Source: Rickettsiales bacterium (lineage in GTDB: Bacteria > Pseudomonadota > Alphaproteobacteria > Rickettsiales > JALZUV01). Taken from it: a stretch of DNA of 35,174 nucleotides. This document shows positions 32,157 through 35,174 of the stretch, in pieces. The notes beneath the pieces are model-generated. The model ran no database searches. It had not been told where the DNA came from and worked only from the letters and a program-made list of their open reading frames with translations. Position numbers and translations under genes: made by a program. Each line of letters starts with the position of its first letter. Within the stretch, counting starts at the first letter, position 1. The stretch lies in the NCBI GenBank assembly GCA_029252805.1, contig JAQXAR010000027.1:1-35174 (forward strand), in the 5' to 3' direction.

Positions 32157-34505
32157 ATGAATACACAGACATTGGGGATAGGTGGAGCGTTGCTCCAGTT
32201 TACACAGAGACGGATACGCGAATTTGCGGGCATCTTCTGGTTTTTATTAGCTTTTTTCCTTACACTTTCACTTATCAGCTACGATTCATCTGACCCTTCT
32301 TATAACGTTGTCAGCGAACAATCCTTCCATAATTGGCTCGGTTTTACCGGCGCCATTACAGCAGACTTCTTGCTTCAATCCATCGGCCTCGCGAGTATTT
32401 TCATCGTTTTAACCTTCCTGGGATGGGGATGGCGCCAATTTATTCGTCATGGTGAGCTTTTTATACTACTACGCACCGCAACGCTGCTTTTAGCCCTACT
32501 TGCCGCCTCTTTCTTATTCAGCCTCATACCTTTTCCTTCCGGCTGGCCGATTTCTGCTGGATTAGGCGGGGCGATCGGAAGCCTACTCGAAGCGCAGCTC
32601 CCTGCTGGACCGATCAAACTCATCGGCGCGGCCTTTATGATCGTCGCTTTCCTTGCTCTCTGGGGCATTAGCTCTGGCATCAATCCACGTGAATGGAAAG
32701 GTATTAACCTACTGCTTGGTTACGTAGTTTTCACTATCATCCGCAAAATCACAAGCCTCTTCCGCTATAGCAGCCGCGTTACGTTTGATGGTTACGAATT
32801 ACCGAAGATAAGCACCTTGATTCGATTCCTGCCATTTATTGGCAATAAAGAAGAGGGCGAAATTCAGAACCCACGCCCCAAGAAACGTCGCGCACGACAC
32901 AAAACTGCAAAACCAGAAATACAAGAGCACCCCCGACCGGAGCCTAAAGTCAGTAAACGCGTACAGAAAACGTCTAAAAAAGAAGAACAGGCAAGCCTGC
33001 AACTCACCCGCCGCGAAGGTGGATATGAGTTGCCGGATATAAGCTTGATGAAACCCCCGCCCAAATCTTCACGCAAACACACATTGAGTGATACGGCGTT
33101 AGAACAGAATGCCCGACTTCTGGAATCTGTTTTGCATGATTTCGGTGTAAAGGGAGATATTGTCGGCATCCGCCCTGGCCCTGTCGTCACCCTCTATGAA
33201 CTAGAACCTGCCGCCGGTACAAAATCTTCACGCGTGATTGGCCTAGCAGACGATATTGCGCGCTCTATGAGTGCTATCTCTGCGCGTATTTCGGTCATCC
33301 CAGGCCGTAACGCCATGGGGATAGAACTACCAAATAGCAAACGCGAAACGGTCTATTTCCGCGAGATGCTAGAAGATGGCGAGTTCACGCAAACCGATAG
33401 TGACCTGCCCCTTGCACTCGGCAAGGATATTGGCGGGCAACCAGTAGTGGTTGATCTCGCAAAAATGCCTCACTTGCTCGTCGCAGGTACGACCGGTTCG
33501 GGTAAATCCGTCGCGATTAATACGATGATCGCCTCGCTGCTTTACCATCACACGCCGGAAGAATGTAAGTTCATCATGATTGATCCGAAGATGCTTGAAC
33601 TCTCGGTTTATGAAGGTATCCCTCACCTACTCTGTCCGGTTGTGACGGAACCACCGAAAGCCGTTGTCGCCCTCAAATGGACGACCAAAGAGATGGAAAA
33701 TCGTTACCGCTTAATGGCCAATCTCGGCGTGCGTAACGTGGCCGGCTATAATAAACGCATCCGCGCCGCTAAGACGAAAGGCGAAGAATTAAAACGCACC
33801 GTCCAAATCGGATTTGATCCTGAAACCGGCAAGCCAATCTACGAAGACCAGCCGATGGATATGAACCCGCTACCCTTTATTGTGGTCGTGGTCGATGAAA
33901 TGGCAGACCTTATGTTAGTCGCCGGTAAAGACATCGAAACCAGTATCCAACGGCTTGCTCAAATGGCACGTGCCGCTGGTATCCATATTATCATGGCCAC
34001 ACAGCGCCCATCGGTCGATGTGATTACCGGTGTCGTTAAAGCCAACTTCCCAACCCGTATCAGTTTCCAAGTCACCTCACGTATTGATAGTCGCACGATC
34101 TTGGGCGACCAAGGGGCGGAACAACTGCTCGGCATGGGTGATATGCTCTATATGGCGGGTGGCGGTAAAGTCACGCGTGTGCATGGCCCGTTCGTGTCTG
34201 ATAAAGAAATCGAACATTTAGTATCCTTCATTAAAACCCAAGGCGAGCCTAATTATGTCGAAGATGTAACCATTGACCCAGATGAAGCAGGTGATCTGTT
34301 CGATGGCGGCGGCGAGATGGATGAAGAAACCATGCTCTATAATCAAGCCGTCAACATCGTACGCACCGACAATAAAGCCAGTACGTCATACATCCAACGC
34401 AAGTTAAAGATCGGCTATAACCGCGCCGCACGCCTGATTGATAGAATGGAAGAAGAAGGCGTCGTCAGCCAAGCCAACCACGTAGGCAAGCGCGAACTTC
34501 TTTAA
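32157..34505 (+). CDS. ftsK: DNA translocase FtsK
   Basis: FtsK anchors at the division septum and pumps DNA to finish chromosome segregation and activate XerCD at dif. The 782-residue protein has four N-terminal membrane helices (about 25-45, 70-92, 98-122, 155-175), a short Lys/Arg/Glu-rich linker (about 235-300), and the RecA-like motor with Walker A G-T-T-G-S-G-K-S near 443-450 and Walker B V-V-V-V-D-E-M-A-D-L near 577-586. The C-terminal gamma winged helix (about 725-782, Y-I-Q-R-K-L-K-I-G-Y-N-R-A) reads KOPS-type polarity sequences. The ribosome site before ATG 32157 is weak. About 400 noncoding bases separate it from the convergent argB. Confidence 0.96.
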   Translation: MNTQTLGIGGALLQFTQRRIREFAGIFWFLLAFFLTLSLISYDSSDPSYNVVSEQSFHNWLGFTGAITADFLLQSIGLASIFIVLTFLGWGWRQFIRHGELFILLRTATLLLALLAASFLFSLIPFPSGWPISAGLGGAIGSLLEAQLPAGPIKLIGAAFMIVAFLALWGISSGINPREWKGINLLLGYVVFTIIRKITSLFRYSSRVTFDGYELPKISTLIRFLPFIGNKEEGEIQNPRPKKRRARHKTAKPEIQEHPRPEPKVSKRVQKTSKKEEQASLQLTRREGGYELPDISLMKPPPKSSRKHTLSDTALEQNARLLESVLHDFGVKGDIVGIRPGPVVTLYELEPAAGTKSSRVIGLADDIARSMSAISARISVIPGRNAMGIELPNSKRETVYFREMLEDGEFTQTDSDLPLALGKDIGGQPVVVDLAKMPHLLVAGTTGSGKSVAINTMIASLLYHHTPEECKFIMIDPKMLELSVYEGIPHLLCPVVTEPPKAVVALKWTTKEMENRYRLMANLGVRNVAGYNKRIRAAKTKGEELKRTVQIGFDPETGKPIYEDQPMDMNPLPFIVVVVDEMADLMLVAGKDIETSIQRLAQMARAAGIHIIMATQRPSVDVITGVVKANFPTRISFQVTSRIDSRTILGDQGAEQLLGMGDMLYMAGGGKVTRVHGPFVSDKEIEHLVSFIKTQGEPNYVEDVTIDPDEAGDLFDGGGEMDEETMLYNQAVNIVRTDNKASTSYIQRKLKIGYNRAARLIDRMEEEGVVSQANHVGKRELL

Positions 34506-34519
34506 GCTAATTTTCTGGC

Positions 34520-34548
34520 TTGACTTACCCGCCCAGATTGTATTTATT
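34520..34548 (+). promoter_or_regulatory. Candidate promoter of the structured RNA region
   Basis: TTGACT (34520-34525) and TTTATT (34543-34548) are 17 bases apart. Transcription would start near 34555, two bases before the first hairpin of the structured region. The -35 is good; the -10 is only moderate. Confidence 0.4.
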
Positions 34549-34554
34549 GGCACA

Positions 34555-34898
34555 ATAGTATCTAGGTTAGATACTTCGGGGCTTTCAAAAACCTCTCCAC
34601 AAGCGGTTGTGTGACAGCAATCGTTAACTACACTGTCTCCTCGTTCCTAGGGTCGGGGTGGTGACGTTATGTAACAGGCTCACGCTGAAAGCGTCGCAGC
34701 TATCTTGTGGTAGTTTTTGAACACCCCGGCCACCAGTGGGGCTTCCCCGCTGGTGGTCACTCACTCATTATGAGTCGGGAGGATCGGGGAATAAAAGACC
34801 ATAGCTTAACACTAGGGAAATACCCGGTTGAATGTTGTAAATAAGAACAAGCCTCCCGGCGGTTGTGGGGGATGCCCGAACCTGTTGGGCGATAGCCC
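34555..34898 (+). ncRNA. Candidate structured noncoding RNA between ftsK and argB
   Basis: The only gene-free stretch over 300 bases (34506-34909). It holds much base-pairing potential: AGTATCTA/TAGATACT (34557-34564, 34568-34575); TTCAAAAAC with GTTTTTGAA (34584-34592, 34713-34721) extended by GGGG/CCCC outside and CCACAAG/CTTGTGG (34597-34603, 34704-34710) inside; ACGCT/AGCGT (34682-34694); a 12-bp stem starting CCACCAG (34730-34756); ACTCA/TGAGT (34763-34775); CGGGAGG with CCTCCCG (34776-34782, 34852-34858); GGTT/AACC (34861-34882); and GGGC-GATA-GCCC (34887-34898). A possible promoter sits just upstream on the plus strand. I find none of the hallmarks of tmRNA, RNase P RNA, SRP RNA or a tRNA on either strand, and the strand itself is inferred. 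It could be a divergent known RNA such as 6S RNA, or a new one. Confidence 0.4.
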
Positions 34899-34909
34899 TG
34901 AAAACAAAC

Positions 34910-35174
34910 TTAGTCTTTTTTCTTAATCATGGTGCCAGCACCGGCTTCAGTGAAGATTTCCACCAGCATCACATGCGGGATACGCCCATCGAGGATGTGC
35001 GCTTTGCTTACGCCTGCATTCAGCGAGCTGACGCAGGTTTCAAGTTTTGGAATCATACCGCCACTGATCGTGCCGTCCTGCATGAGTTGATCCACTTCGC
35101 CTAAGCTTAATTCGCTGAATAGCTCACCATCTTTGGCCAACACGCCGGGGATATCGGAGAGCATGATGAGCTTC
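34910..35174 (-). CDS. argB: Acetylglutamate kinase, C-terminal part
   Basis: ArgB phosphorylates N-acetylglutamate in arginine synthesis. The frame is open from the right window edge, so only the last 87 or so residues are present. They carry the family's C-terminal motifs: L-S-D-I-P-G-V-L, the G-T-I-S-G-G-M-I-P-K-L-E substrate and ATP-binding segment, H-I-L-D-G-R-I-P-H and the final E-A-G-A-G-T-M-I. It converges on ftsK across the structured noncoding region; the run of Lys codons at its end supplies a T run on the plus strand that might assist termination of a plus-strand RNA. Confidence 0.9.
   Translation of the reverse strand, partial: KLIMLSDIPGVLAKDGELFSELSLGEVDQLMQDGTISGGMIPKLETCVSSLNAGVSKAHILDGRIPHVMLVEIFTEAGAGTMIKKKD

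Follow-up and report, generated by a model that had tools for sequence, protein, structure and literature searches.

A probable stand-alone, double-core C4-type antisense RNA gene of the sRNA-Xcc1 group between ftsK and argB in a Rickettsiales bacterium

Introduction

The small RNA sRNA-Xcc1 is annotated across the Proteobacteria, at times with a link to virulence. Its 88-nt size and 5′-end have been mapped (PMC2996969), and it is found in Xanthomonas and in integron cassettes, where it has to date been described as an sRNA with no mechanism given (PMC2996969; PMC12444791). The most widespread integron cassette of Xanthomonas carries sRNA-Xcc1 upstream of symE (PMC12444791). A literature search, mainly of open-access texts, returned no paper that links sRNA-Xcc1 to the C4 antisense RNA of phages or explains how it works.

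The annotation of phage P1 (AF234172) places a promoter, the sites a1 and b1, and the 77-nt C4 RNA ahead of a second pair of sites, a2-b2, at the start of icd. In the P1 sequence, the partner of the a sites is the strand that follows stem P3, and that of the b sites is the P3 loop. As summarised in PMC5320573, RNase P cleavage at the 5′-end of the closing stem of P1/P7 C4 yields the active RNA.

The window considered here is the whole stretch of DNA analysed, 35,174 nucleotides from a Rickettsiales bacterium (GCA_029252805.1, contig JAQXAR010000027.1). Between its ftsK and argB genes lies an element that, judged by homology, is a diverged member of the sRNA-Xcc1 group and that has the anatomy of C4.

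Results

The stretch at 34506-34909 is flanked by an FtsK-like ORF (32157-34505, + strand) and an ArgB-like ORF (− strand) ending at 34910; the two genes converge on the element, so that no gene lies downstream of the window copy. No long ORF fills the stretch, in agreement with a preceding sequence-only reading that had called it gene-free. Positions 34519-34860 hold a + strand gene for a structured RNA, and the conserved unit runs from its left edge, CTTGACTT at 34519, to the end of a second core at 34860. Its parts are as follows.

34519..34548, + strand: promoter-like block CTTGACTTACCCGCCCAGATTGTATTTATT, the left edge of the repeated unit, where the sibling alignment begins
34557..34576, + strand: 5′ hairpin P0, AGTATCTA GGT TAGATACTT, read from the sequence, with the same fold in sibling copies
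34578..34603, + strand: leader target a1-b1, the covarying complement of core a′ and b′
34584-34592, + strand: a1 TTCAAAAAC, pairing with a′ at 34713-34721
34597-34603, + strand: b1 CCACAAG, pairing with b′ at 34704-34710
34604..34623, + strand: leader hairpin CGGTTG...CAATCG, in which changes on both sides preserve the pairs in relatives
34651..34735, + strand: first antisense core, with closing stem GGTCGGGGT/ACCCCGGCC followed by ACCA; an RNase P cut is predicted at its 5′-end
34704..34710, + strand: b′ CTTGTGG, which forms the loop of stem P3 and is the complement of b1, with all four Watson-Crick types at several pairs
34713..34721, + strand: a′ strand GTTTTTGAA, from P3 to the closing stem, the complement of a1
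34728..34757, + strand: strong hairpin GGCCACCAGTGGGG...CCCCGCTGGTGGTC, at the terminator position of single-gene copies, without a T run
34774..34860, + strand: second core, diverged, GTCGGGAGG ... CCTCCCGGC, without ACCA here; present in seven of seven double copies

Allowing 0-3 mismatches, the genome contains the promoter-like block at six places, each of them 5′ of a double-core copy, and its reversed control does not occur (0 hits). A −35/−10 pair had been proposed here: the −35 box is conserved in the six copies, but no standard −10 match was found at the block and the exact −10 box could not be fixed. The helices named beforehand are all present (34578-34603 with 34704-34727, the hairpin at 34730-34756, and 34776-34782 with 34852-34858). 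The mutually exclusive pairings at 34874-34898, which had been likened to a switch, fall outside the conserved unit, in a part where sibling copies do not align. What had been taken for a single housekeeping-like RNA of about 400 nt is actually a leader and two copies of an 85-nt core. A housekeeping RNA (RNase P, tmRNA or tRNA) was rejected, there being no Rfam or ARAGORN match to one and the genome having its RNase P RNA gene (rnpB) elsewhere, at 333 bits.

RNA folding against shuffled sequences gives z = −3.83 for the + strand and z = −3.96 for the − strand; since the minus strand folds equally well, fold energy alone is little proof of strand or function. The comparative evidence is decisive for a structured RNA. 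In an alignment (A6) of 28 copies from relatives, the long-range leader-core helix is 95.3% paired, 11 of its 13 pairs show double changes, and its covariation score is 0.761 versus 0.044-0.124 in slid controls, a value not attained by any of 500 shuffles. For the helix that closes the core, the relatives' alignment gives 97.2% pairing and a covariation of 0.423 versus at most 0.056 when slid. The long-range helix of the sequence-only reading is thereby borne out as a real and conserved one, an antisense-target pairing of leader with core. The RNAalifold consensus of the relatives is a three-stem core with 29 pairs, 19 of them with double changes, and the partners of the leader within it are the P3 loop and the stretch that links P3 to the closing stem. 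This complementarity is locus-specific, as 0 of 5000 permutations reach the real value in either set. The closing stem has 9 of 9 bp in 43 of 48 copies and 8 of 9 in the other five, and ACCA comes next in 29 of the 48.

The Rfam scan of the window found nothing at gathering score. With a permissive threshold, 34652-34738 matches RF02221 (sRNA-Xcc1) at 47.7 bits against a cut-off of 53 (E 2.1e-7, 601 bases); the first core spans positions 1-87 of the 87 in the model, i.e., a full-length match with its three-stem consensus, and the second core matches weakly (34774-34868, 24.4 bits). An undescribed RNA had been suspected: the element is indeed an RNA, but its core is a sub-threshold relative of RF02221 and its plan is that of a C4 antisense RNA. 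The first cores of the other double copies score 35.4-51.5 bits, also below the cut-off, and of 55 genomes from the same order, 13 have matches to RF02221, above the cut-off in only two.

A model (R1) was built from 45 cores of the window's order, with the classical sRNA-Xcc1 loci absent from its training. It scores the first core of the window copy at 79.5 bits and its second core at E 0.022; the second core of the sibling on contig C47 reaches E 8e-7. R1 finds 19 places in the genome itself; across the order, 54 of 135 genomes have at least one hit, with a maximum of 28 per genome. In three compact, near-complete genomes of another family of the order (f12; G107, G123 and G134), R1 matches are weak (E about 1e-8) and the cores are longer. 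In other Proteobacteria, R1 retrieves the classical sRNA-Xcc1 loci L101, L091, L076, L072 and L066 at E 5e-11 to 3e-10; because it does so without sRNA-Xcc1 training, the cores of the window's order and sRNA-Xcc1 are homologous. The element is not formally filed under RF02221 or RF01695 (C4), since it lies below the cut-off of the former and has no match to the latter.

The order of parts in the window element matches that of phage P1, i.e., a1 and b1 followed by a core with b′ and then a′, and the leader target agrees in order and place with the annotated a1-b1 of P1. Its upstream a1-b1 has its complement in the a′ and b′ of the core, and its closing stem with 3′ RCC(A) has the sequence signature of an RNase P-type substrate. 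An a-b target over the ribosome-binding site (RBS) of a downstream gene is present in gene-bearing relatives and lacking in the window copy. A search of the entire genome with the RF01695 model returned nothing at E ≤ 10, and R1 does not retrieve the C4 sequence of P1. A hairpin of the type GCGG..CCGC....GCGGTTTTTTTGTG is common to the P1 c4 leader (L183 4250-4340) and sRNA-Xcc1 leaders (L067, L104, L112), which suggests that the C4 and sRNA-Xcc1 families are of common descent.

A DNA search of the genome with the element found eleven places, seven of them long. At least seven double-core copies, 73-83% identical, occupy intergenic sites with no target gene attached, namely the window copy and six siblings on contigs C29, C60, C37, C33, C47 and C18. 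They share a plan of promoter and leader followed by two cores in tandem; the C18 copy is truncated by its contig end before the promoter block, which leaves that block in six copies. No terminal inverted repeats or target duplications were seen at the edges of the unit. Leader and core are matched in five of the six leader-bearing double copies, the b1-b′ match having been lost in the C33 copy; their retained match despite loops that differ among copies points to selection after duplication. At the same site in a congener (G001), ftsK and argB are present and the element is absent. Second cores below the Rfam cut-off also occur in another genome (G047, L029) and in Histophilus (L093).

Four of the seven double copies lie between convergent genes. 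A general rule to that effect was rejected, as the C33 copy precedes a co-directional gene and the C18 copy precedes dnaK; the C47 site is unassigned. The double-core copy upstream of dnaK (L063) is co-directional with dnaK-dnaJ, and read-through from it could influence the chaperone operon. The end of contig C46 (L062 1-99; G000:C46:1-99, minus strand) has 99 bases identical to window positions 34608-34706, and is probably a further, very recent copy at an assembly break, the window copy being interior to another contig. Other interspersed palindromic repeats, e.g., GTCATTGCGAGCGAAGCGTGGCAATGACG, are found beside some copies (L008 downstream of 1851, L011 downstream of 1845, and the upstream part of L014).

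Most copies in the order are of a single form, in which promoter, leader and core are followed by a terminator-like hairpin and by the Shine-Dalgarno (SD) sequence and start codon of a gene, in most cases 16-67 nt past the core. A pattern scan of named genomes shows the element to be widespread in Proteobacteria. The proteins encoded downstream at 41 loci include Bro-N (9), Rha (4), KilA-N (4), AntA (3), P22 antirepressor (P22_AR; 3), ORF6N (2) and SymE (2) types, and downstream proteins also match PHROG anti-repressors. In isolated phages, the element is found directly 5′ of ant and also 5′ of a small ORF with a DNA-binding protein gene. Temperate phages carry this RNA ahead of antirepressor genes, on which it would act as an antisense brake of their own making. 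In the window's order, about 8 of 36 downstream genes encode helix-turn-helix regulators, and others encode small proteins, among them lipoprotein-like ones. Small helix-turn-helix proteins with an ‘IGxNI’ motif, which look like phage-type regulators, recur behind single-core copies (L060 1675-1926, L026, L028, L033, L034, L037 and L040). Cores show greater complementarity to the SD/start region of their own genes than to those of other loci. Over a tight SD-to-start interval, 0 of 10000 permutations reached the real value in the wide set and 5 of 10000 did so for the window's order; the latter result hinges on the interval, as wider ones gave 494 of 5000, which is not significant.

Discussion

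We regard it as probable that the ftsK-argB copy belongs to the sRNA-Xcc1 group and is a stand-alone, double-core C4-type antisense RNA gene that came from phages and has multiplied in the chromosome, with its own promoter, a core freed by RNase P, and mRNA blocking as its action. The directly established basis comprises structure, covariation, complementarity, copy number and the gene context of relatives. For the window element itself we infer transcription, RNase P cutting, repression and action in trans. Its own promoter would give a precursor RNA, within which leader a1-b1, the same sites as in a target, would pair with the core. RNase P would cut near 34651, at the tRNA-like stem that closes the first core, and may also cut at the second core; this would free a core some 85 nt long. 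A cut of this kind agrees with the size (88 nt) and mapped 5′-end that RF02221 models for sRNA-Xcc1. The b′ loop and a′ strand would pair with an mRNA bearing a-b sites around its RBS and thereby block translation. A stringent genome search found no second a-b site for the window loops, and a hit with three mismatches falls within an ORF. Because no gene lies downstream and the leader-core match has been kept after duplication, a stand-alone, probably trans-acting C4-type RNA is favoured. The window copy is apparently a gene-free, chromosomally adopted phage-type RNA, and most likely a domesticated one that would act in trans.

The main rival is that the copies are a non-autonomous repeat scattered through the genome, in which remnants of phage-type C4 leaders were multiplied as DNA and are decaying without function. 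The seven or more diverged double copies, the empty site in the congener, the degraded second core, the leader mismatch of C33 and the negative target search all favour this account, but the promoter-like block has been kept in six copies, leader and core change together among copies, and neither terminal inverted repeats nor target duplications were seen at the unit edges; we consider it unlikely. A DNA transposon (MITE) was rejected on the same edges, and since the inverted-repeat look is leader-core complementarity that covaries in the RNA fold. An integron cassette or attC origin seems unlikely too, the copies being spread over many contigs with no array seen. Somewhat more room is left for solitary cores as chromosomal immunity or decoy RNAs, which would not act on host genes but would shut down antirepressor-like genes of phages entering the cell, or titrate other cores. 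C4 of P1 is an immunity RNA, the authors of the Acinetobacter study raise such a role for C4-derived sRNAs (PMC5320573), and relatives of the element occur in phages; yet the window element has no match among phage or plasmid records and no matching phage target was found, which makes this role rather doubtful.

That the element is a cis-acting riboswitch or attenuator, with leader-core and closing-stem pairings competing to control a terminator, seems very improbable. The leader GGGG and the core GGGG could share one CCCC, and the single-gene copies of the order have terminator-like hairpins 5′ of the start codon, but the window copy has no downstream gene between the convergent ftsK and argB, no T run follows its hairpin, and the variable a′ and b′ track their own leader and SD partners instead of forming a fixed ligand pocket. 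A fixed-ligand riboswitch was set aside for the same reason, the loops tracking their own targets. An account in which GC-rich DNA folds by chance, for example as a terminator that serves both of two convergent genes, could draw on the folding of both strands and the convergent setting of four of the seven double copies; it is refuted by strong covariation in the correct register only, and the conserved promoter block and the different sites of C33 and C18 also speak against it, so that we give it practically no credence.

For sRNA-Xcc1, the evidence offers a concrete, testable mechanism, that of an RNase P-released antisense to the RBS of the gene behind it, as in P1 immunity. On a broader and more speculative reading, double-core C4-type RNAs, each copy with two antisense cores, might make up a domesticated network on the chromosome in this lineage; they and the single-gene copies would supply the cell with adaptable RNase P-made silencers of host or invading-phage genes, the whole sRNA-Xcc1 family being a C4-type system for antirepressors and SymE-type toxins; we offer this tentatively, as something less than an even prospect. 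No prior description of the two-core form was found in the literature searched.

The C4 RNA of P1/P7 (RF01695) shares with the window element a promoter, an upstream a1-b1, a three-stem core with a′ strand and b′ loop, a closing stem ending in ACC, the target order a then b and, in relatives, the RBS target. The window element differs in having two cores, no RF01695 match and no adjacent icd-ant operon. The Group 1 C4-like sRNAs of Acinetobacter baumannii (PMC5320573) are likewise phage-derived, stand-alone and present in many chromosomal copies, with 5′-end processing of the core, but they belong to another lineage, resemble the P1/P7 C4 family and have a single core; the window's lineage would be a second one, besides Acinetobacter, in which phage RNAs have been multiplied as stand-alone chromosomal genes. 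With sRNA-Xcc1 the element has in common the core length, the three stems, the closing stem, the A-rich internal loop and the multi-copy habit, whereas the window copy is double-core, scores below the cut-off, and has neither a visible integron array nor a downstream gene. Genomes of Xylella fastidiosa (PMC12189769) likewise hold several copies of sRNA-Xcc1 each, and five copies lie near one another as the sXF1-5 cluster; those are clustered in one genomic island, whereas the double cores of the window genome are dispersed.
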